From contig NZ_CP049366.1 of NCBI RefSeq assembly GCF_014058425.1, positions 2,232,001 to 2,296,000 on the forward strand: a DNA stretch of 64,000 nucleotides. The letters are read 5' to 3'. The stretch is from Companilactobacillus pabuli (GTDB lineage: Bacteria > Bacillota > Bacilli > Lactobacillales > Lactobacillaceae). Each line of letters starts with the position of its first letter. Position 1 is the stretch's first letter. Positions 17,061-58,858 of this stretch are shown in pieces. The notes beneath the pieces were generated by a model that worked only from the letters and a program-made list of their open reading frames with translations, did not search any database and was not told where the DNA came from. A program made the position numbers and the translations under genes.

Positions 17061-17270
17061 GATGGAGAAAATTATGAAGTTAGGAAAATGCTCAGAGATT
17101 CCTAGGCTTGTTCCGCTCTCTCATTTAAATGGGCTACGAGATACAGATGTCTGTGCTTTGCTACGCTATGAAAATCATCCACAAGCCCAGGTACCGTGGA
17201 TAATTCCCATAGCTAGGCAAATGCTCAACATCTAGACGTCTCTCTCCGCCCTCTATTTCAAAAATTCTTC
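17061..17270. other. Structured non-coding stretch, function unknown
   Basis: An open frame of 63 codons crosses this stretch, but its composition and lack of a ribosome site argue against a gene. Several self-complementary segments exist: CTAGGCTTGT (17102-17111) with ACAAGCCCAG (17181-17190), ACAGA/TCTGT near 17145-17155, and ATCCAC/GTGGAT around 17177-17201. The word ATGCTCA appears near both ends. It differs from the five-copy repeat described elsewhere. Confidence 0.4.
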
Positions 17271-17315
17271 ACATTTTATTACAATTTTATTCGTATTTGT
17301 AAGTTATTATTTAAC

Positions 17316-17595
17316 CATAGTCAAAAAGCAAAGAGGTGACCGGATGGTTAGATAACTTCCCGAATAGAGATAACCCTTTTAAAAAGATAATTATTGAAAA
17401 CAATGAATAGAAAAACAAACCCTTAAAACATATATTTAAAAAAATTTAATCCCCTAAAAATAAACTTCAAATATCTCCCCCCTAATAGATATGAAGTCAA
17501 TTACAGAGTTATTCCCCGTAACTCTAAAAGAAAGAAGCGATATTTATCACATTTATGAATATCACATTAGCTTGCCTATTGGCAGGCTTTTTTTT
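17316..17595 (+). ncRNA. Candidate C-rich small RNA, copy A
   Basis: A transcript of about 275 nt is proposed from CATAGTCAA (17316) to the terminator at 17569-17595 (AGCTTGCC/GGCAGGCT plus T8). Two hairpins show C runs in their loops: ACTTC-AA-ATATCT / AGATAT-GAAGT with loop CCCCCCTAAT (17464-17497), and AGAGTTA/TAACTCT with loop TTCCCCG (17505-17525). Further C patches are AACCC and AATCCCC. Copies B (21671) and C (22411) share the start, an AGAGGTGAC-GATG block, the C loops and the end. The next gene, rpiA-like, begins 48 nt after the terminator, so a leader role is also possible for this copy. Confidence 0.65.
17344..17355 (+). other. Start-stop mini-ORF (MVR) in RNA copy A
   Basis: AAGAGGTGACCGG is followed by ATG GTT AGA TAA. 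A ribosome-site-like block with an ATG and an early in-frame stop recurs at the same place in copies B (12 codons) and C (ATG ACT ATA TAA). Confidence 0.3.
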
Positions 17596-17642
17596 CGTCT
17601 AATTGGTAAAATATAACTGAATTAAAAAATAAGGAGATTGTC

Positions 17643-18305
17643 ATGGAAAAGTTAATTGAATCAGCTTTAAAAATGATTGAACCAAAGATGACCGTTAGTT
17701 TTGGGGGCGGACGGACAGTTGGTCGCTTGCTTCGAGCAGTTAAGGATAGTCAATTAGATATTAAGATTGCTAGTCCTTCTGAAGCTACTAGAGAATTATG
17801 TAAGGAATTGGAATTACCGGTGACTTCATTAGAAGAAGTGGCTACTTTTGATTTAGCTTTTGATGGATGTGATAGTTTAGATCATCATTTGAACGCTCTG
17901 AAGAGTAATGGTGGGATTCACGTTTTTGAAAAACTTTACGCTAACTTATCCAAACGCTACATTATTTTGGCTCCAGAAACTCGTTTTACTAAAGTTTTAA
18001 ATCCAGATATTCAATTAACTTTGGAAGTTTTAGATTTGGCCATGCCACAAGTTATCGCTGCGGTTGAAAAACTTGGTGGTACTGCAGAAATTCGTCAATC
18101 TAGCGATATCGCCGGGATGGTTCGAACGAAAAATGGTAACGGATTACTAGATTGTCATTTTGATGATTGGTCTTACATCGATGAAATTGACGCTGAATTG
18201 GGATCAATGGTCGGTGTGATGGGAACTTCTTATTTTAAAGATATTGTGACAGATGCACTGTTAGCAACTGATGATGGTGTAAAGCACGTAAAAAAAGATA
18301 TATAA
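17643..18305 (+). CDS. Divergent ribose-5-phosphate isomerase A-like protein
   Basis: A 220-aa protein of RpiA length and order. The usual phosphate loop GTGST is GGGRTVG, the DGADE motif is DGCDSLD, and KGGGGA is KSNGGIH followed by FEKLYA. Both Asp of the DGxD motif, the Lys and the Glu positions remain, so activity is possible, but the changed loops may signal another sugar phosphate. RpiA interconverts ribulose-5-P and ribose-5-P in the pentose phosphate pathway. AGGAG lies upstream of the ATG. It sits alone between copy A of the RNA family and a bidirectional terminator. Confidence 0.75.
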   Translation: MEKLIESALKMIEPKMTVSFGGGRTVGRLLRAVKDSQLDIKIASPSEATRELCKELELPVTSLEEVATFDLAFDGCDSLDHHLNALKSNGGIHVFEKLYANLSKRYIILAPETRFTKVLNPDIQLTLEVLDLAMPQVIAAVEKLGGTAEIRQSSDIAGMVRTKNGNGLLDCHFDDWSYIDEIDAELGSMVGVMGTSYFKDIVTDALLATDDGVKHVKKDI

Positions 18306-18306
18306 A

Positions 18307-18345
18307 AATAAACCGAAGAGGCTTCGATAGTCTTTTCGGTTTATT
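18307..18345. terminator. Bidirectional terminator, rpiA-like / rarA
   Basis: AATAAACCGAA and TTCGGTTTATT form the stem; inner GAAG/CTTC pairing is also possible. Convergent genes end on both sides. Confidence 0.8.
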
Positions 18346-19669
18346 TGTTGTGTTCTTCATGCCAATTTTTAATGTAATCGATTCGCTGTTTAAAGAGTTT
18401 TTCGCGTCCTTGTTCAGTTGGAGCGTAATATTGATGCCCCAAAACTTCATCAGGAACAGTTTGCATGGTTGTTAATTTATCTTGATAATCATGGGCTAAT
18501 TTGTAGTCTTTACCGTAACCAAGTTTTTTCATTAACTTAGTGGGAGCGTTTCGGATTTGTAAAGGAACTGGCAGGTTACCATATTTCTTAACATCTTTTT
18601 GAGCTTTTAGAAGAGCTTTGTAAGTGGCATTTGATTTCGGAGCGACTGACAAATAGATTACGCACTCAATCAAATGAACGTTACATTCAGGCATTCCTAA
18701 GAACTGGCAAGCTTGAAAAGTATTGATGGCGACATTTAAAGCATTCGTGTCGGCCAAACCAATATCTTCAGATGCAAATCGAACTAAACGTCTGGCGATA
18801 TAAAGTGGATCTTCACCGCCTTCTAACATTCTAGTAGCCCAATAAATCGCTGAATCGGTGTCACTATTGCGCATAGATTTGTGCAAAGCTGAAATAATAT
18901 TGTAGTGTTCCTCACCATTTTTGTCATAGCGCAGTGATTTAGTATTGAGCAATTGACGGATATCATCGATATTGACGGTAATTTTATCATCTTTAGTTTG
19001 AGAATTGATAACAGCCATTTCTAAAGTATTCAAGGCCACTCGAGCGTCACCGTTAGCATAAGCGGCAATTAATTGTAAGGTATCGTCTTGAATATCAATT
19101 TCTTTTTTGAAGGCTTTAGGATTATTCAACGTGTTATTCAGTAATTCGACTAAATCATCTTGTGTTAATGATTTTAAAACGAAAACTTTGCAACGAGATA
19201 ATAGGGCTGAATTGATTTCAAACGAAGGATTTTCTGTTGTGGCACCTATCAAAGTGATACTGCCTTTTTCGACGAAAGGTAAAAAAGCATCCTGTTGAGC
19301 TTTGTTGAAACGATGAATTTCATCAATGAAGACAATAGTTTTTTGTCCCATTTCTCGATTGAGTTCGGCTTCTTTCATGACCTTTTTGATATCGTTGATT
19401 CCACTAGTAACGGCACTAAAAGTGATGAAATTAGCTTTAGTTTTTTTAGCGATGATTTCGGCAAGGGTAGTTTTACCAACCCCGGGAGGGCCCCAAAATA
19501 TTAATGAAGGGATTTTATCTTGATCGATAATTTCTCGTAAGATTTTTTTGTCGCCAATCAAATGTTTTTGACCAACAAACTCCTCTAATGTCGTCGGTCT
19601 GACCCGATTTGCTAGAGGAGTATTGTTGTCATCTTTATTTGAACTGGCAAAAAGAGATTCTTGTTGCAT
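18341..19669 (-). CDS. rarA: Replication-associated recombination protein A
   Basis: A 442-aa AAA+ ATPase (MgsA/RarA, clamp-loader related). Walker A is GPPGVGKT, Walker B is VFIDEIHRFNKAQQD, and sensor 1 is LIGATTENPSFE. The C-terminal part contains GGEDPLYIARRLVRFASEDIGLAD and the tetramer region with YKALLKAQKDV. It acts at stalled replication forks. It follows the GPH symporter after 11 nt on the same strand, so the two may share a transcript without a functional link. Confidence 0.93.
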   Translation of the reverse strand: MQQESLFASSNKDDNNTPLANRVRPTTLEEFVGQKHLIGDKKILREIIDQDKIPSLIFWGPPGVGKTTLAEIIAKKTKANFITFSAVTSGINDIKKVMKEAELNREMGQKTIVFIDEIHRFNKAQQDAFLPFVEKGSITLIGATTENPSFEINSALLSRCKVFVLKSLTQDDLVELLNNTLNNPKAFKKEIDIQDDTLQLIAAYANGDARVALNTLEMAVINSQTKDDKITVNIDDIRQLLNTKSLRYDKNGEEHYNIISALHKSMRNSDTDSAIYWATRMLEGGEDPLYIARRLVRFASEDIGLADTNALNVAINTFQACQFLGMPECNVHLIECVIYLSVAPKSNATYKALLKAQKDVKKYGNLPVPLQIRNAPTKLMKKLGYGKDYKLAHDYQDKLTTMQTVPDEVLGHQYYAPTEQGREKLFKQRIDYIKNWHEEHNK

Positions 19670-19680
19670 ATTTGCCTTCT

Positions 19681-20994
19681 TTATTTAATTGCTTGAATAA
19701 TTTTCTTTTCATTGTATCCCAATAAAATTAAAAACATGATGACATATAAAATTAAGGGGATTAAAGCGTAATTTAAATTGATAGCGGAAATTGTGGCAGC
19801 AGTCTGAGCTTTGTTTGAAACATAACCAGAAATCTGCAATGATTCAGCAGTGATCAAACCACCAAGGCCGAGTCCTAGATTAACTCCAAAGTCATCCGTT
19901 GAAGCGAGCACGCCTTCAGCTTGAATGCCCATAGCCGTTCCGTAACGAATCGTATCAGCAATCATAATTGAAACTAGTCCAATTATGAAACCACCACCGA
20001 TACAGTTAATGAAAATACCAATAAATAGAACTGGTAAGTTGGTTGTATAAGCGGCAAAAGTAATAATCAATTGACCGACAAAAGCAGTGATGATTCCCAG
20101 TAGCATCGTGTTCTTTTTACCTAATTTGGCCGAAACAAAGTAAATTGCGACGACACCGATTAAGGCAGTGAAGGTAAAACTATTGGCGAAAGAAACTAGA
20201 TTTTCATCATGAATGACGTATTTGAAGTAGTAAATCGTCGTTTGATTTTTAATTGAAGTCGTCAACCAATATAGGAAGATAACGATAGAAATAACAATCC
20301 AAGGTTTATTCTGCTTGAGCATTTTCCAAACTTCTGAAATTGGTTGATGACTGATTTCTTTGTTAGTGTAACGTTCCCTGACATGAAAGAAGGTATTTAA
20401 AATCAAAACTAATGAGATGAAACCAAAGAGAATAATTGTGCCTAAGAATCCTTTCTCCTGGTCTCCTTGGCCAAATAGATTGACTAAAGGAATCGTAAAG
20501 ACAGCCACGATAATTTGAACGGAACTACCACAAAATTGTCTAATAACACCTAGAAGAGTTGTTTCTTGCTCATTGTTAGTCATTGTTGGCAAGATTGAAG
20601 TAATTGGCAAATTAACGGCTGTATAGAAAAATCCTAAACCTAAATAAGTAACGTATGCCCAAATAAGTTTCCCAGAGTGTGGAAGGAAATTAGGCGTAAC
20701 AAAAGTCAAAACAGCGAATACTACATATGGAAATGAGTACCACAAAAAGAAGGGACGACTTTTGCCCCATCTAGAATGGGTATTATCGATCATCACACCA
20801 ATTATTAAACTTTCAAAGACGTCAGCAGTTCTAGCTACGACAAATAGAATGGCCACCTCATTGGCGGTCAATCCGAAAACGTCAGTATAGAAGAATAATA
20901 GATAGGTGGTCATCATTTGAAAGACAAGATTATCCGCTGCATCACTTAAGCCATAACTGATCCGTTCAGTTAATGAGGTTTTCCATTTATTCAA
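19681..20994 (-). CDS. GPH-family sugar/cation symporter
   Basis: A 437-aa transporter with about 12 helices of the glycoside-pentoside-hexuronide:cation symporter family. Family marks are ERISYGLSDAADNLVFQ near the N-terminus, the MIDNTHSRWGKSRPFFLW loop and GFIIGLVSIMIADTIRYG in the second half. There is no EIIA-like C-terminal domain. The start codon is TTG (20994). No glycosidase is adjacent, so the sugar is unknown. It is 7 nt downstream of the YagU gene and 11 nt upstream of rarA. Confidence 0.8.
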   Translation of the reverse strand: MNKWKTSLTERISYGLSDAADNLVFQMMTTYLLFFYTDVFGLTANEVAILFVVARTADVFESLIIGVMIDNTHSRWGKSRPFFLWYSFPYVVFAVLTFVTPNFLPHSGKLIWAYVTYLGLGFFYTAVNLPITSILPTMTNNEQETTLLGVIRQFCGSSVQIIVAVFTIPLVNLFGQGDQEKGFLGTIILFGFISLVLILNTFFHVRERYTNKEISHQPISEVWKMLKQNKPWIVISIVIFLYWLTTSIKNQTTIYYFKYVIHDENLVSFANSFTFTALIGVVAIYFVSAKLGKKNTMLLGIITAFVGQLIITFAAYTTNLPVLFIGIFINCIGGGFIIGLVSIMIADTIRYGTAMGIQAEGVLASTDDFGVNLGLGLGGLITAESLQISGYVSNKAQTAATISAINLNYALIPLILYVIMFLILLGYNEKKIIQAIK

Positions 20995-21001
20995 AAGTAA
21001 C

Positions 21002-21508
21002 CTACTTAGTTAAGCGACGATATAGTTCACGGCCGACGATATCGTTGGTCCACATCCAAGCAATGTGACCGAGAGCTTCCGATAAGTGTTCTTCAGTAGG
21101 TTGGTCTTTAGGACTAGGAACAGTCTTCATCATAGGCATAATACCAATATGGAAGGCCACCCAGATAGCCAAGCCAAAAATTGCGCCGGATCCTTTTCTA
21201 ATGAATGGTTTATATTCTGACAAGACTTCATAAATAATGGCAAATGAAGTGGAGAAACCAAAGTGCATCAAAAAACTTGCCCAAGGCATTTTTTGTTCAG
21301 AATAAGTGTAAGTTCCACGAGTGATTTTCTTAGGAATACCGAATTGTTCCATTAAGGTTTGAGGAGGGTTGACGGCATCACGTTCAGGAGTACGAGGTGG
21401 CAAGACATTTTCCCATCCTAGTTTGACAAATCCAGAAACGATACCGGCAGCTGTCCCCGCAACAATGGCTGCTTTCAAATCGACCTTTTGATCTTTCGTT
21501 AATTTCAT
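21002..21508 (-). CDS. YagU family membrane protein (DUF1440)
   Basis: A 168-aa protein with about four hydrophobic segments. The typical YagU features are KAAIVAGTAAGIVSGFVKLGWE at the N-terminus, PPRTPERDAVNPP, and the C-terminal GHIAWMWTNDIVGRELYRRL. YagU proteins are inner-membrane proteins linked to acid resistance in Escherichia coli; the role here is unknown. It is the first gene of a probable three-gene minus-strand unit. Confidence 0.8.
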   Translation of the reverse strand: MKLTKDQKVDLKAAIVAGTAAGIVSGFVKLGWENVLPPRTPERDAVNPPQTLMEQFGIPKKITRGTYTYSEQKMPWASFLMHFGFSTSFAIIYEVLSEYKPFIRKGSGAIFGLAIWVAFHIGIMPMMKTVPSPKDQPTEEHLSEALGHIAWMWTNDIVGRELYRRLTK

Positions 21509-21641
21509 AAAAATCCCTCACTTTATTATTATTTTAATTTAAGTATAAAACAGCTTAAATGCTAATTCAGGTAATTAGTCTTGAGATAGCGTCATAATTT
21601 CTTCATAAATTGTTATAAATTAATTCGTAGTTTAGCAATCA

Positions 21642-21669
21642 TTACTTCATAAATCCCCGCTATTATATA
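21642..21669 (+). promoter_or_regulatory. Promoter of RNA copy B
   Basis: TTACTT (21642-21647), a 16-nt spacer and TATATA (21664-21669). The same arrangement and downstream AGCATAGTCAA occur at copy C. Confidence 0.55.
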
Positions 21670-21670
21670 A

Positions 21671-22031
21671 GCATAGTCAAATAACAAAGCAACAAAGCAA
21701 TTTGTTCTTAGTTATAAGATTATTAAAAATATAAATTATGAATTCCCCCCTAATAAAGAATTTACTTGAAAGAAGTGACCGGATGAAATTGGAAACCGCT
21801 CGTAAGATATTATTTTCTTAGATAACTCACTTTACACATGAATAGAAATAAACCCCTATATAAATACTCTATTTTTAAAAAGTTTAATCCCCTTATAAAC
21901 ACATAGATAAAAAACTTTTTCAAATATCTCCCCCCTAAAGATATAAAAAGTTAATTTCCTAAAAAACAATTTGATATTTGTTCCCCGCAAATATCACAAA
22001 AAAGAAAACTCGTCGAAATGGCGAGTTTTTT
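21671..22031 (+). ncRNA. Candidate C-rich small RNA, copy B
   Basis: About 360 nt, transcribed against both neighbouring genes, so it cannot be a leader of a coding gene. Hairpins: AACTTTTT-CAA-ATATCT / AGATAT-AAAAAGTT with loop CCCCCCTAA (21913-21952), GATATTTG/CAAATATC with loop TTCCCCG (21973-21995), and an extra AATTC/GAATT hairpin with a C-rich loop (near 21740-21762) that the other copies lack. Terminator AAAACTCGTC/TGGCGAGTTTT at 22005-22031. Loops are the same as in copy A while stems differ but stay paired, which is strong evidence for a conserved RNA. Confidence 0.7.
21783..21821 (+). other. 12-codon mini-ORF in RNA copy B
   Basis: AGAAGTGACCGG precedes ATG; the frame encodes MKLETARKILFS and stops. 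It occupies the place of the 3-codon frames of copies A and C. Confidence 0.3.
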
Positions 22032-22121
22032 GCTTTTTCAAATTAGGTTAGTCTTAAAATGCTATCATTACCAATCAGATAGCATTTTTTTCTATATTTC
22101 AGTAATTAAAAATAAAAGTGC

Positions 22122-22307
22122 TATCTAGTCCGGAATAGCGAAGAAAATTGGCTCAGATGTGAGATTATTCTTAGCAACTTGTTGCTTAGAATAAGACCGA
22201 GCTTGAAGACTTTGCCCGGTTCTGGGCTTAGCAAAGGCTCCAAGTCGTGTCCACATCGTTCCAGCCAAATTCTCTTCGCTATGGAGGACGGAATGCCTAC
22301 ACTAATC
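22122..22307 (+). repeat. Structured repeat element, copy 1
   Basis: A 186-bp element from TATCTAGTC to CACTAATC. Closing helix GTCC(GGA)ATAGCGAAGA ... TCTTCGCTAT(GGA)GGAC; junction helix GATGTG/CACATC (22156-22161/22252-22257); two inner hairpins, the first TTATTCTTAGCAAC/GTTGCTTAGAATAA. It lies between RNA copies B and C and is oriented plus. It contains no credible gene. Confidence 0.8.
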
Positions 22308-22380
22308 AAGGCTTTCTACAATACTAAATGTCGATTTTTCTTCACAATTACTTACGATTTATTTCTCAAAAACCCAATTA

Positions 22381-22408
22381 TTACTTCATATTTGGCCGTT
22401 ATTATATA
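22381..22408 (+). promoter_or_regulatory. Promoter of RNA copy C
   Basis: TTACTT (22381-22386), a 16-nt spacer and TATATA (22403-22408), matching the promoter of copy B almost base for base downstream of the spacer. Confidence 0.55.
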
Positions 22409-22410
22409 AG

Positions 22411-22607
22411 CATAGTCAAGAAACAAGAGGTGACTCGATGACTATATAAGAAACATTTAAACTAGATAATTAAAAACTTAAAACATGATATTTTTCAATA
22501 TATTTATCCTCCCCCCTTAAATATATAGAATTTAAAAAGAAAGAAGAAATTGCTTATGACAAACGCAAATACAAAAGGAGCTAGCTTAAAGGCTAGCTCC
22601 TTTCTTT
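22411..22607 (+). ncRNA. Candidate C-rich small RNA, copy C
   Basis: About 195 nt, transcribed against the opp operon. It starts with CATAGTCAAG, carries AAGAGGTGACTCGATG, and has one main hairpin ATATATTTA/TAAATATAT with loop TCCTCCCCCCT (22498-22526). The loop contains CCTCC, the exact complement of a Shine-Dalgarno core. The terminator AAAGGAGCTAGC/GCTAGCTCCTTT (22574-22607) also serves the opp operon from the other side. It lacks the second TTCCCCG hairpin of copies A and B. Confidence 0.7.
22438..22449 (+). other. Start-stop mini-ORF (MTI) in RNA copy C
   Basis: ACAAGAGGTGACTCG then ATG ACT ATA TAA, the same layout as in copy A. Confidence 0.3.
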
Positions 22608-22684
22608 GTGTAAAATAATATTTGTTTGGTATTGGATTTGGATTTTGCCGAATAGACTAGGAAATGCTGCACTCATTTTCTGGT

Positions 22685-23611
22685 CTATTTTTGATATTTC
22701 TTAGCCTCTTCGTTACTGCAATATAAGAAGTGGCCAGGTAATACTTCTTGAAGTCTTTGATCATCTTTGAAAGGACTCTTGTGGTCAAAGTCGATTCTAG
22801 TACGTTTCTTTTCCACTTCTGGATCAGGAACGGGGATAGCTGACAAAAGGCTTTGTGTGTAAGGATGTAATGGATTGTTATAAATTTCGTTGGATTCAGC
22901 TAATTCAACGATTTTACCACGATACATAACAGCGATTCTGTCACTGATGTACTTAACCATGGAAAGATCATGGGCGATGAAGAGATAAGTTAGTCCTTGC
23001 TTCTTTTGGATATCTTGCATCAAGTTAACAACTTGGGCTTGGATAGAAACATCAAGGGCTGAAATAGGTTCATCGGCGATGATAAATTGAGGATCAACGG
23101 CCAAAGCACGGGCAATACCGATACGTTGACGTTGACCACCAGAGAATTCGTATGGGTAACGAGTCATGTGTTCAGGGTTTAAGTTAACCATGTCGAGCAA
23201 TTCACGGACTCTTTGGTCACGTTCCTCGTCATTTTTAACTAAGCCGTGGACATCAAGACCTTCAGCGATGATATCCTTAACTTTCATTCTTGGGTTTAAT
23301 GAAGCATAAGGATCTTGGAAGATCATCTGCATTTCACGACGGAATTCCTTCATCTTAGGTCCGTGGGCCTTGATAGTACTGATGTCTTGGCCATTGAAGA
23401 AAATGTGTCCATCAGTTGGGTTGTAAAGTCTGATAATACTACGTCCAGTAGTACTCTTACCAGAACCAGATTCACCAACGAGGCCAAAAGTTTCACCTTT
23501 ATAAATATCGAATGAAACGTCATCAACAGCTTTAACTTCGTTAGGCTTGCCAATGTTGAAATATTGTTTTAGATGTTTTACGGATACGATTACTTGTTTT
23601 TCATCTGCCAT
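22685..23611 (-). CDS. oppF: Oligopeptide ABC transporter ATPase OppF
   Basis: A 308-aa ATPase. Walker [11 protein letters not shown]-loop FQDPYASLNPRMKV, signature [14 protein letters not shown], Walker B FIIADEPISALD, switch His in IAHDLSM, then the oligopeptide-type C-terminal extension (HPYTQSLLSAIP and a Cys-containing tail). It powers peptide import with OppD. The start overlaps the stop of oppD by one base. It is the last gene of the opp operon; the terminator of RNA copy C on the other strand closes it. Confidence 0.93.
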   Translation of the reverse strand: MADEKQVIVSVKHLKQYFNIGKPNEVKAVDDVSFDIYKGETFGLVGESGSGKSTTGRSIIRLYNPTDGHIFFNGQDISTIKAHGPKMKEFRREMQMIFQDPYASLNPRMKVKDIIAEGLDVHGLVKNDEERDQRVRELLDMVNLNPEHMTRYPYEFSGGQRQRIGIARALAVDPQFIIADEPISALDVSIQAQVVNLMQDIQKKQGLTYLFIAHDLSMVKYISDRIAVMYRGKIVELAESNEIYNNPLHPYTQSLLSAIPVPDPEVEKKRTRIDFDHKSPFKDDQRLQEVLPGHFLYCSNEEAKKYQK

Positions 23612-25699: not shown

Positions 25700-26631
25700 T
25701 ATTCTTTACCTCCGTTTCCTAGTCTAATTCTTGGATCGATTAGTCCATAAAGGATATCGACGATCAAGTAAACTATGATTAATAAGAATGAATAGAAGAT
25801 TGTAAGACCCATGATAGTAGGGTAGTCATTTGTAGTAATTGATTTAACGAATTGTTCACCAATACCAGGAATTGAGAAGATGTTCTCAACAACCATGGAA
25901 CCAGTCATAACAGAAACTGCCATTGGACCGATGATAGTAACAACTGGGATCAATGAATTACGTAGAGCGTGTTTTGTAACAACTTTCCAGTTAGAGTTAC
26001 CTTTTGATTTGGCTAATTCGATATAGTCACTACTCAAAACGTCCACCATTTCAGTTCTCATGAAACGAGCAACAGTACCTAATGGCAATGCAGCTAGAGC
26101 AATTGTTGGAAGGACACTTGATTGGAAGTTGTCCCATAGAGCAACTGGGTAAATCTTCCACTTGTAGGCTAGGTAGAACTGAAGTAAAACGGCTAAAACG
26201 AAAGATGGAATTGATAGACCAAGAATTGAAACGAATGTTGCAAGTGTATCAACCCATGTGTTTTTACGAATAGCGGCAACGGCACCAAGTAGGATACCGA
26301 AGATAGTACCAACGATCATAGCTTGAGCACCAATTTGCATTGATGGAGCAAGTCTTTGACCGATTAATAATGTAACGGGTTCATTGTTGAATTGGAAGGA
26401 AGTACCAAGATTTCCTTGTAATAACCCACCGAGATAACGAACATATTGAACAAATACTGATTGATCCAATCCATATTGGGCTTTAACGATCTTCAATTGT
26501 TCCGCGGACATACGGTTCTGGTTAGAGAACGGTGTACCAGGAAGCATCTTCATCAGGAAGAAAGTTATTGTCGCAATAATGAAGAGGGTCAAGAATAAAT
26601 AAAAAATTCTTCTGAGAATATATTTAGTCAT
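25699..26631 (-). CDS. oppB: Oligopeptide ABC transporter permease OppB
   Basis: A 310-aa permease with six helices. Typical features are YILRRIFYLFLTLFIIATI at the N-terminus, LPGTPF, YGLDQSVFVQYVRYLGG, and the EAA loop AKSKGNSNWKVVTKHALRN. It is the partner of OppC. It follows oppA after 23 nt. Confidence 0.92.
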   Translation of the reverse strand: MTKYILRRIFYLFLTLFIIATITFFLMKMLPGTPFSNQNRMSAEQLKIVKAQYGLDQSVFVQYVRYLGGLLQGNLGTSFQFNNEPVTLLIGQRLAPSMQIGAQAMIVGTIFGILLGAVAAIRKNTWVDTLATFVSILGLSIPSFVLAVLLQFYLAYKWKIYPVALWDNFQSSVLPTIALAALPLGTVARFMRTEMVDVLSSDYIELAKSKGNSNWKVVTKHALRNSLIPVVTIIGPMAVSVMTGSMVVENIFSIPGIGEQFVKSITTNDYPTIMGLTIFYSFLLIIVYLIVDILYGLIDPRIRLGNGGKE

Positions 26632-26654
26632 TATTTAATCTCCCTCACCTTTAG

Positions 26655-28292
26655 TTATTTTTTGTAGACAGTGACAAGGTTGTAACTACCATTTGGTGTC
26701 ATACGGTAATTCTTGACGTTAGTTCTAGTCAAGTTGGCTTGATATGATTGATACAAAGGAACGACCCCTTCGTCATCGGCTAAAATCTTAGCTGCTTGAA
26801 GAAGGTCTTGCCATCTAGCATCTTCATCAGTAGCATCAGTTGTCTTAGATCTGTCGATCAATTCATCGTATTCTTTATTAGAATATTTACCATTATTTTG
26901 TGAGTTGGTTGTTGTGAATAGATCCAAGAATGTAACAGGATCTGGATAATCGGCATTCCAACCAGTAACAACGATATCGAATTGACCATTAGTTGATTTA
27001 TCTAGACGTGACTTAAATGGAACGTTTTGAAGTGTGATCTTCAATCCAGGTAAGTTCTTTTCTAGTTGACCTTGAAGGTATTCGTTTTGTTTCTTAGCAC
27101 CATCAGTATCATCACCTAGAAGGGTAAAGCTGAGATCTTTTTGACCGGTTTCTTTAATACCTTCCTTCCAAAGTTTCTTAGCTTCGGTTGGATTGTATTC
27201 AGTGTATTTATTTGAAGATTGAAGCATCTTTTCTTTAGTAAAGTCGACCTTAGTTGTAGGGTTGTATGACATACCTACTGGAACCATTGTGTGTTCAATA
27301 CCACCAGTTTTACCAAGAACGTTGTTAGTTAATTGATTACGATTGATAGACATTGAGATAGCTTGTCTGATCTTAGGATTCTTAAAGAATTTGTATTTCT
27401 TTTGGTTAAATTCAAGATAGAAGTTACCTGTTTGTTTATCCATTGAGAATGTCTTGTAGTTTGAAACTTGACGAGCAGTGTCGCCACCAAGTTTTTCTAG
27501 ACGGTTGATACGGTTAGTATCGTAAAGATTCAAACCAGTATTAGCATCCTTAACAACGTAATACTTTACTTTCTTTAATTTAACGGCTTTAGCATTCCAA
27601 TATGAGTTGTTCTTAACTTCAGTCCAACTGTTACTTGAAACAGACCAGTTAACTAGTTTGAAAGGTCCATTGAAGACCATTCCTTTACTCTTCAAACCAT
27701 ATTGTTTACCAGCTTTTTCTACTGCTGGTTTGTATTGTGGGTAGAAAGTAGAACTAGCCATCAAAGTATTAAAGTATGGGATGGCATCTTCCAAAGTAAC
27801 TTGAAGAGTGTATTTATCCAAAGCTTTGATACCTAATGAATTTACAGGTTTCTTACCAGCACTGATCTTATCAGCGTTTTTAATACCGGTATAAATATAG
27901 GCATATTGTGAAGCAGTCTTTGGATCAACGGTTCTTCTCCATGCATAAACGAAATCGTTAGCAGTTACGGGTTTGCCGTTTGACCACTTAGTATGTCTTA
28001 GATGGAAAGTATAGACCTTACCACCATCAGTAGGTTTAACGACTTTCTTAGCTATGGCAGGTTGTAATTCTTTACCATCATATCTGTAAAGACCTTCCAT
28101 AGTGTTAGTTAAATTTTGAGCTCCGATAACATCGGTGTTCATAGATGAATCCATTGTTGCAATAACATCACTAGAACTGATTGAGAGGGTATCTTTGCTA
28201 TCTTTTTCAGCGGAAGAACCACAGCCACTCAGAACTAATGCGAATAGAAATATCGGTAACAATGCAAGTAAATACTTCTTCTTGAATTTCAT
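26655..28292 (-). CDS. oppA: Oligopeptide-binding lipoprotein OppA
   Basis: A 545-aa substrate-binding lipoprotein. Signal peptide with lipobox LSGC (Cys at about residue 24), then a family 5 solute-binding fold: AIAKKVVKPTDGGKVYTFHLR, VTANDFVYAWRRTVDP, VFNGPFKLVNW and VTGWNADYPDP. It captures peptides outside and hands them to OppBC. GGGAGG stands before the ATG. It opens the operon and is expected to be the most abundant product. Confidence 0.93.
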   Translation of the reverse strand: MKFKKKYLLALLPIFLFALVLSGCGSSAEKDSKDTLSISSSDVIATMDSSMNTDVIGAQNLTNTMEGLYRYDGKELQPAIAKKVVKPTDGGKVYTFHLRHTKWSNGKPVTANDFVYAWRRTVDPKTASQYAYIYTGIKNADKISAGKKPVNSLGIKALDKYTLQVTLEDAIPYFNTLMASSTFYPQYKPAVEKAGKQYGLKSKGMVFNGPFKLVNWSVSSNSWTEVKNNSYWNAKAVKLKKVKYYVVKDANTGLNLYDTNRINRLEKLGGDTARQVSNYKTFSMDKQTGNFYLEFNQKKYKFFKNPKIRQAISMSINRNQLTNNVLGKTGGIEHTMVPVGMSYNPTTKVDFTKEKMLQSSNKYTEYNPTEAKKLWKEGIKETGQKDLSFTLLGDDTDGAKKQNEYLQGQLEKNLPGLKITLQNVPFKSRLDKSTNGQFDIVVTGWNADYPDPVTFLDLFTTTNSQNNGKYSNKEYDELIDRSKTTDATDEDARWQDLLQAAKILADDEGVVPLYQSYQANLTRTNVKNYRMTPNGSYNLVTVYKK

Positions 28293-28321
28293 TGTTTAAC
28301 CTCCCTAAAGTAATTATTCTT

Positions 28322-28350
28322 AGAATAAACTAATGAATATTAAAACACAA
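28322..28350 (-). promoter_or_regulatory. opp operon promoter
   Basis: On the minus strand TTGTGT (28350-28345), a 17-nt spacer and TATTCT (28327-28322), about 30 nt before the oppA start. Confidence 0.55.
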
Positions 28351-44533: not shown

Positions 44534-44541
44534 GTTTTACA

Positions 44542-44690
44542 GTTCCTTTCCGAGGAACTGAGCACGGCGGGTATTACCTTTCGTGCTCAGCTTCTCGGAA
44601 GAGAAGCACTCCCCCCTTAATAATTATTCGAAATCCTCAACAAGTTTCGTAAATTAAATCCACATTCTCACGTAATGTGGATTTTTTTTG
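44542..44690 (+). ncRNA. Candidate C-rich small RNA or structured 3' UTR, copy D
   Basis: After the permease stop come hairpins GTTCC/GGAAC (44542-44558), CTGAGCACG/CGTGCTCAG (44558-44590) and CTTCTC/GAGAAG (44591-44606), then an open CTCCCCCCTTAA (44609-44620), a CGAAA/TTTCG hairpin with CCTC in its loop, and a strong terminator AATCCACATT/AATGTGGATT plus T8 (44657-44690). The C6 run resembles RNAs A-C, but the sequence is otherwise different. It could be released from the 3' UTR, as no clear promoter is seen. Confidence 0.5.
44657..44690 (+). terminator. Terminator of the BceAB-like operon
   Basis: AATCCACATT (44657-44666) and AATGTGGATT (44674-44683) followed by a T run. Confidence 0.88.
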
Positions 44691-58836: not shown

Positions 58837-58858
58837 CGAAAAGAGGGGGGATGAATGG

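Follow-up and report, generated by a model that had tools for sequence, protein, structure and literature searches.

Blocking of Shine-Dalgarno (SD) sites by small RNAs with C-rich loops is established for LhrC, RsaE and others, and opp mRNAs are among the targets (PMC4132741, PMC8079631, PMC3861533; other literature drawn on: PMC3091779, PMC5880928 and PMC7873292). In Streptococcus, the CiaRH-dependent csRNAs are 51-202 nucleotides (nt) long, carry the box NTTAAG-N5-TTTAAG ten bases before the -10 box and are complementary to translation starts; that account reports no CiaH homologue for Lactobacillus (PMC3091779). LhrC1-5 and Rli22 of Listeria stand under the LisRK two-component system and, together with Rli33-1, form a multicopy set with redundant UCCC motifs in a loop, a linker and, in LhrC1-5, the terminator loop; they block SD sites and have oppA as a target (PMC4132741, PMC8079631). 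In Staphylococcus, RsaE has UCCC loops and pairs at the opp3B and opp3A ribosome sites (PMC3861533). Here, a family of small RNAs with C-rich hairpin loops is described from a 64,000-nt stretch of Companilactobacillus pabuli (RefSeq assembly GCF_014058425.1, contig NZ_CP049366.1, positions 2,232,001 to 2,296,000), called the window below, which carries three copies, A, B and C. These are almost certainly real functional RNAs and are likely to be regulator-induced, multicopy, trans-acting RNAs whose C loops would cover SD sites.

All three copies lie on the plus strand. Copy A (17316-17595) has C motifs at 17451-17454, 17477-17482 and 17514-17517 and an intrinsic terminator at 17569-17595. Copy B (21672-22033) has them at 21745-21750, 21853-21856, 21889-21892, 21930-21935 and 21983-21986, with a terminator at 22005-22033. 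Copy C (22411-22607) bears the motif CCTCCCCCC in a loop (run 22511-22516); its end was placed by eye, its terminator having been missed by the scripted finder. From the sequence we infer that all three are transcribed. A sequence-only reading of the same DNA had proposed these three plus-strand copies with a common start, and direct inspection bears this out, B beginning at 21672: CATAGTCAA occurs three times in the window, always on the plus strand, at 17316, 21672 and 22411 (chance mean 0.61; at least three in 3 of 100 shuffles). The GATG-containing block that was also called shared does recur, AGAGGTGACNNGATG being found three times with at most one mismatch (chance mean 0.04), but not at one common place, because the block of copy B, with one mismatch, sits 99 nt inside the RNA, at 21771. 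The motif TCCCCCCTWA occurs five times in the window (17476, 21744, 21929, 22510 and 44610; chance mean 0.11). The fifth occurrence falls outside the A/B/C set: at 44540-44690 on the plus strand, another TCCCCCCTTA run comes after the end of a gene, flanked by a G+C-rich hairpin and a terminator. A regulator box looked for by eye at this run was not seen, and the region is possibly a 3'-untranslated-region RNA with a C loop.

Conserved hairpins and their spread

Sixty-three copies, selected by a pattern of the promoter box, were collected from 26 stretches of 24 of the 25 same-genus genomes; the 25th, G017, carries a relative. The 54 copies with a script-found terminator are 193-443 nt long, with one to six C-runs per RNA. 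Copies A, B and C fold more stably than dinucleotide shuffles (z -2.6, -4.1 and -3.9, respectively). Among 202 runs of at least four C in the 63 copies, 120 are closed by a stem with at least six uninterrupted pairs, G-U pairs allowed, against 15.4 expected from shuffled 30-nt flanks. Some of these runs lie beyond the RNA, because the nine copies lacking a script-found terminator were trimmed at 450 nt; restricted to the other 54 copies, the count is 103 of 178, with 13.7 expected. The neighbours of the runs, TTTAATCCCC, ATCTCCCCCC and ATTCCCCG, are conserved past the C run itself.

The stems and C-run loops quoted in the sequence-only reading are present as described. That reading had taken constant loops on changing but paired stems as a sign of function; as it set paralogues against each other, the comparison was repeated with orthologues included. 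C loops and stems proved conserved, and the TTCCCCG hairpin covaries. The sample consisted of the 18 of 63 copies with the full three-hairpin 3' module, orthologues included, which gave 11 distinct rows. The TTCCCCG loop is mostly constant and its stem varies (AGAGTTA/TAACTCT, AGAACTA/TAGTTCT, GATATTTG/CAAATATC). Seventeen cells carry a change on each side, compared with 6.9 in the shuffled sets, which ignore relatedness among rows, and the covariation score is 0.396 against 0.151 (0 of 500 shuffles in each case). In the proposed register 77.8% of cells pair (63.9% when shuffled), and slid registers fall to 27-48%. Two coarser counts, of double-changed pairs (5 vs 3.7; 52 of 500) and of further pair types (9 vs 9.8; 403 of 500), are unremarkable. 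The outermost position fails to pair in 7 of the 11 rows, which leaves a stem of about eight pairs.

A DNA search with copy A gave matches in 24 of the 25 same-genus genomes, its own included, and weak ones in 3 of 16 others. The pattern CATAGTCAA-N0..30-GAGGTGAC occurred in 23 of the 25 and in none of the 16 (reversed control 0); both genomes that it missed, G022 and G017, have relatives. The exact -10/start sequence was found in 40 stretches of named records, comprising 37 from Companilactobacillus, 2 from 'uncultured Lactobacillus' and 1 from Secundilactobacillus. When 397 Lactobacillaceae genomes were searched for the start pattern with at most one mismatch, 35 had a match. Of these, 23 belong to the own genus (26 searched), 6 to genus g170 (15 searched) and one each to six further genera; the last six compare with 5 matches in the reversed control. 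Among the single matches, those at L150, L151, L175, L176 and L178 lay in coding sequence or lacked C loops and were set aside as chance matches. In all six g170 loci there is an RNA whose C-rich loops, several in number, are in most cases CCTCCTCCCC, CACTCCCC and, in the terminator, AACCCCTAA; L180 and L184 deviate. One of the six, L181, matches the Secundilactobacillus record in sequence. Given this distribution and the g170 loci, the A/B/C type is, by sequence, genus-wide in Companilactobacillus and has a cousin RNA in Secundilactobacillus. At L177, in genus g230, the box TTCACACTTTCTTCACATTTAT precedes CATAGTCAA, and a loop ACTCCTCC is present; this RNA is a possible third-genus relative.

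A shared promoter box, a second RNA type and a peptide gene

The consensus of the 63 promoters reads TCTTCACAaaT-taTTAtaaATT-taTTCGTA.TTT-..cAATtATT-TATTCATAaTT-N3-CG-TTATTATTTAAG-CATAGTCAA. Half-sites stand at -81, -70, -59, -48, -37 (degenerate) and -26, an 11-bp step, and end 9 bp ahead of the -10 box. In the window, the box of copy A (17268-17295, plus strand like the others) has TTCACA at 17268, TTACAA at 17279 and TTCGTA at 17290, followed by the -10 box TATTAT at 17305-17310 (possible alternative -10: CATAGT). That of copy B (21602-21651) has TTCATA at 21602, TTATAA at 21613, TTCGTA at 21624, a degenerate site at 21635 and TTCATA at 21646, with TATTAT at 21661-21666; that of copy C (22341-22390) has TTCACA at 22341, TTACGA at 22352, TTCTCA at 22363, a degenerate site at 22374 and TTCATA at 22385, with TATTAT at 22400-22405. 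The box is no artefact of box-based picking, because the 58 copies found earlier from CATAGTCAA and GAGGTGAC alone, all among the 63, carry it without exception. The copy at L042 10537 lacks the upstream half of its box, and one copy among the 63 scores far below the rest on the position weight matrix (PWM).

With up to three mismatches, the full box had 21 matches in six genomes, 17 of them on A/B/C-type RNAs, and one in the reversed control; in the own genome it occurred at A, B and C only. Three of the four remaining matches, in G005, are other members (L119, L120, L190), and the fourth is G005 C36. A box relaxed to at most two mismatches was matched 19 times in the own genome and 17 times in G005, where the controls gave 10 and 7, respectively; many of the two-mismatch matches, among which copy C was read, are thus probably noise. 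Those with no or one mismatch, 5 and 8, respectively, were all members when read. Besides A, B and C, the relaxed box picks out two type II RNA genes and a peptide gene in the own genome.

Type II RNAs, about 100 nt long, read GTAGATGAGAG...CTCATCCCCCCTATAACATATATATTTAATCCCCTA... and end in a terminator with the loop TTCCCC; the own genome (G000) has them at 1973099 and 1974612. They occur in 24 of 26 same-genus genomes and in none of 371 other Lactobacillaceae. Their 19 distinct promoters have the form TTCACA-N5-TTCACA-N16-TTCACA, with TTCATA variants, at the positions of the A/B/C box. The terminator hairpin (12 distinct ones from 15 loci) covaries round a fixed TCCCC, 92.7% of cells being paired, with 26 double changes against 8.2 and a score of 0.864 against 0.330 (0 of 500 shuffles each); double-changed pairs number 7 against 4.9 (39 of 500) and pair types 16 against 13.0 (17 of 500).

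The peptide gene, at G000 265360 with an orthologue in G005, encodes the 33-residue peptide MKKHPLLVLTGVSVLATVCTKMIRNYNGKKFLN. Its leader, CATAGTCAA...GAGGTGA, is that of copies A and C, and the same box lies ahead of it. Two versions of the peptide had no Pfam or NCBIfam match. Peptide-gene loci were seen at L126 2409-2700 (G000 265.4 kb), L128, L186, L187 and L188; the peptide is membrane-like, and in L126 and L128 the gene lies, by reading, upstream of a yfhO-like gene.

An 11-bp step between half-sites is typical of OmpR/PhoB-type regulators, and the A/B/C RNAs would very probably be under response-regulator control. The own genome has nine OmpR-type regulators; for four of them the best 25 NCBIfam matches each all lay below the cut-off and gave no name. 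With PhoP as a candidate regulator in view, the pstS promoter (L056) reads TTTACA-N5-TTTACA, near but not identical to the box, and the PWM had no good match there. Bacillus subtilis PhoP sites resemble TTHAYA and YclJ sites read TTCATANTTT; a literature search on YclJ sites gave nothing. By reading, an OmpR-type regulator with an unusual receiver domain lies divergent from a pst operon (L109 5138-5917, minus strand), and a second pst operon follows phoPR-like genes at L110. A LisR-like regulator was read at L111, but LisR was not supported by the promoter repeat, different by eye, of the strong lhrC loci found with the LhrC model RF00616 over the order. For CiaR, the helix VVEVYMSNLRKKL of the L114 regulator was set beside the quoted CiaR helix VVEVYVSKVRKKL, but the box differs (PMC3091779).

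Comparison with csRNAs, LhrC and RsaE

No Rfam 15 family matched anywhere in the window at the gathering threshold, and at E<=1 nothing relevant appeared in 17200-22700 (best E 0.35, unrelated). Nor did the literature searched, which lacks most subscription papers, yield a description of such RNAs in lactobacilli; within that search they are undescribed. The likeness to LhrC and the csRNAs drawn in the sequence-only reading holds for the mode of action and fails for membership, since RF00616 has no match in the own genome and the CiaR box NTTAAG-N5-TTTAAG is absent from the consensus of the 63 promoters.

Like the csRNAs (PMC3091779), the A/B/C RNAs come as several per genome, have a direct-repeat regulator box that ends about 10 bp before the -10 box and is close to CiaR boxes in half-site geometry, and end in a terminator (script-found in 54 of 63). 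They differ in being 193-443 nt rather than 51-202 nt long with one to six C-runs, in their TTCAYA/TTCGTA half-sites over six 11-bp steps, and in an embedded SD sequence with a mini open reading frame (mini-ORF). With the LhrC group they share the multicopy state, and the type II RNAs resemble LhrC in their order of hairpin, C-rich linker and C in the terminator loop. A search of 395 genomes over the order with RF00616 found matches in 34 genomes of family f8 (presumably Listeriaceae), and 28 of the 395 were above the cut-off; over the class, the single weak match in 398, below the cut-off and in a genus with weak matches in 3 of 15, was judged false. Among 20 lhrC loci, the readable promoters have by eye another repeat, TCTCAT-N5-TTTAAC-N5-TCACAG, which by eye is not that of the A/B/C promoters. 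RsaE, according to PMC3861533, targets opp3B and opp3A, the same two operon genes that rank highest here among the opp genes; unlike RsaE, the A/B/C RNAs are multicopy with their own box and have no relevant Rfam match. A C-rich motif in conserved hairpin loops, which defines UCCC-loop RNAs as a mode of action and not as a sequence family, is present. The A/B/C RNAs thus probably work like csRNA, LhrC and RsaE, yet belong to none of them by the tests made.

Candidate targets and alternative explanations

The family is strongly supported as functional by conservation, covariation and promoter: its stems covary round fixed C loops, and the copies share a promoter design and terminators. In the proposed mechanism, a response regulator of the OmpR/PhoB family would bind the half-sites of TTCAYA/TTCGTA type, which are repeated in tandem every 11 bp and reach to the -10 box, and so induce all A/B/C copies jointly, with the second RNA family and the small peptide gene. 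The RNAs would present several C-rich loops on rigid stems, and these loops would pair with G-rich SD regions and so keep ribosomes from entering; as each RNA has redundant loops and each genome several RNAs, the response may be strong and graded. Action by SD blocking is in our judgement a good deal better than even. In view of the C runs in hairpin loops and the one shared regulator-type promoter, the set probably acts as a stress-switched brake on the translation of other genes.

Likely targets may include the neighbouring oligopeptide permease. The translation start region of oppB (26620-26660, minus strand, ATG 26631) contains GGGAGATTAAA, complementary to the TTTAATCCCC loop, and that of oppA (28281-28324, minus strand, ATG 28292) contains TTTAGGGAGGTTAAA; both are predicted targets. 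Four loop sequences were scored for duplex formation with 125 start regions from the own genome, drawn from the window and fetched stretches, eight of which had been chosen for G-rich sites (mean -10.5, standard deviation 3.3 kcal/mol). oppB reached -17.5 kcal/mol (rank 6) and oppA -14.9 (rank 14, tied), followed by oppC (-12.2), oppF (-10.1) and oppD (-7.8). In the stretches reaching them, the oppB region retains GGGAGATTAAA in 16 of 16 rows and the oppA region retains TTTAGGGAGG in 11 of 11. AGGGGGG before ATG was found 66 times in six genomes against 14 in the control; for the list of such ribosome sites, 57 stretches were fetched for the 66 matches, plus one match in the window. Given that RsaE pairs with opp3B/opp3A and LhrC represses oppA, opp is put forward tentatively, at somewhat under even chances, as one of the targets.

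Several points weigh against this picture. Conservation does not discriminate between the opp genes, because it extends to the start regions of oppC, oppD and oppF, and 23 other genes share the top 25 duplex ranks. Some of the AGGGGGG-ATG matches are the complement of these RNA genes, and few genes are common between species. On the side of the regulator, no good box was found upstream of any of the nine OmpR-type loci. Finally, a plain antisense role does not account for the conserved SD sequence with a mini-ORF.

Two further observations concern G-rich sites and other recurrent sequences. A LicT-like antiterminator gene (by reading) at 58844 on the plus strand of the window has an AGGGGGG ribosome site, as does its G007 homologue (47% identity). 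The sequence AGGGGGGAAGGATG occurs in four genomes (L193 117, which is G000 71716; G007 954286; G010 C33 15946; G019 C35 85188), in loci with short, unlike frames where read, and may be a structured RNA.

The mini-ORFs raise a rival account, that of dual-function RNAs, in which ribosomes load at GAGGTGA-ATG and translate a mini-gene of 2-18 codons that protects or times the RNA, C-type copies also start a frame that enters the terminator with no stop codon, the C loops operate jointly with translation, and the whole derives from a peptide mRNA with the shared leader. In the window, AGAGGTGAC precedes the mini-ORF ATG GTT AGA TAA in copy A (17332-17355, ORF 17344-17355) and ATG ACT ATA TAA in copy C (22426-22449, ORF 22438-22449), and copy B has an internal SD-like block AGAAGTGACCGG with the 12-codon ORF MKLETARKILFS (21771-21821, ATG 21783), all on the plus strand. 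An SD sequence (GAGGTGA, at most one mismatch) with an ATG within 9 nt is found in 54 of the 63 copies, in 48 of them at one spacing. All these frames span 2-18 codons, and 25 of the 54 have exactly three, compared with 11 of 163 for the remaining ATGs of the copies. The leader CATAGTCAA...GAGGTGA recurs in the peptide gene. In C-type copies and peptide-type genes, a second SD sequence and ATG open a frame that enters the terminator hairpin without a stop; in copy C it lies at 22556-22607, plus strand, behind the SD-like AAAGAAG and runs into the hairpin at about 22573-22607. Counted solely at loci that fit ATG-plus-hairpin patterns, there are 25 such frames in 23 loci, or 18 rows in 17 loci under a stricter hairpin rule. 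Yet the mini-ORFs vary in sequence and length and are missing in 9 of 63 copies, the copies are not independent, the frames are too short for a coding signal, and the stop-free frames come without a chance estimate. We rate a dual function as unlikely, at about one chance in a few. Less likely still is the larger scheme in which one lactobacillar response regulator runs two multicopy C-loop RNA families and a small membrane-type peptide behind one multi-site box, the A/B/C RNAs having derived from the peptide mRNA and still loading ribosomes on the mini-gene, and the stop-less frame of the C type tying activity to translation or ribosome rescue. Stop-less frames into intrinsic terminators were also seen at L185, L189 and L190, among others.

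Redundant, nearly identical loops, one to six C-runs per RNA, and the small number of G6 ribosome-site targets conserved between species would also be expected of sponges that sequester an RNA-binding protein, or G-rich sites in mRNAs at large, instead of selected mRNAs. Known C-loop RNAs of such layout, however, act on mRNA start regions (PMC4132741, PMC8079631, PMC3861533), and the conservation of TTTAATCCCC, ATCTCCCCCC and ATTCCCCG extends beyond the C run, which leaves the sponge improbable.

A regulatory leader is a poorer candidate again. By names read from the translations, copy A has an NlpC/P60-like gene on one side and rpiA on the other, and copies B and C lie between a minus-strand gene (21002-21508) and minus-strand oppF (22685-23611). 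The sequence-only reading had held that B and C are not leaders, and indeed they read into no same-strand gene; it is copy A that lies upstream of a same-strand gene, ending 47 nt before rpiA. A alone might act as a leader, although it has a terminator of its own. That A is mainly an attenuator of rpiA and B and C are relics is very improbable, since B and C, with no same-strand gene downstream, are conserved as well, and A shares the box and is closed by that terminator.

Two other intergenic elements of the window, one at 22128-22289 with inverted ends (22-nt arms 118 nt apart) and a similar stretch in L062, the other at about 17070-17235, are probably a repeated element. That the copies are themselves mobile or repeated DNA with chance hairpins, as their clustered multicopy state beside other intergenic repeats might suggest, is highly unlikely in view of the compensatory changes, the fixed loops, the promoter kept across 24 genomes and the terminators of 54 of 63 copies.

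The preferred reading, regulator-induced C-loop RNAs that cover SD sites, adds to the sequence-only reading a regulator box common to the copies, a further RNA family, a conserved mini-ORF and the opp lead. If it is true, a genus of food bacteria possesses a regulon of the csRNA/LhrC kind, with a box and RNA families of its own and perhaps opp as a target in common. It would then be possible to test whether two-component system, C-loop RNA and oligopeptide uptake recur together, the box and loops being exact handles for tests of expression and targets.

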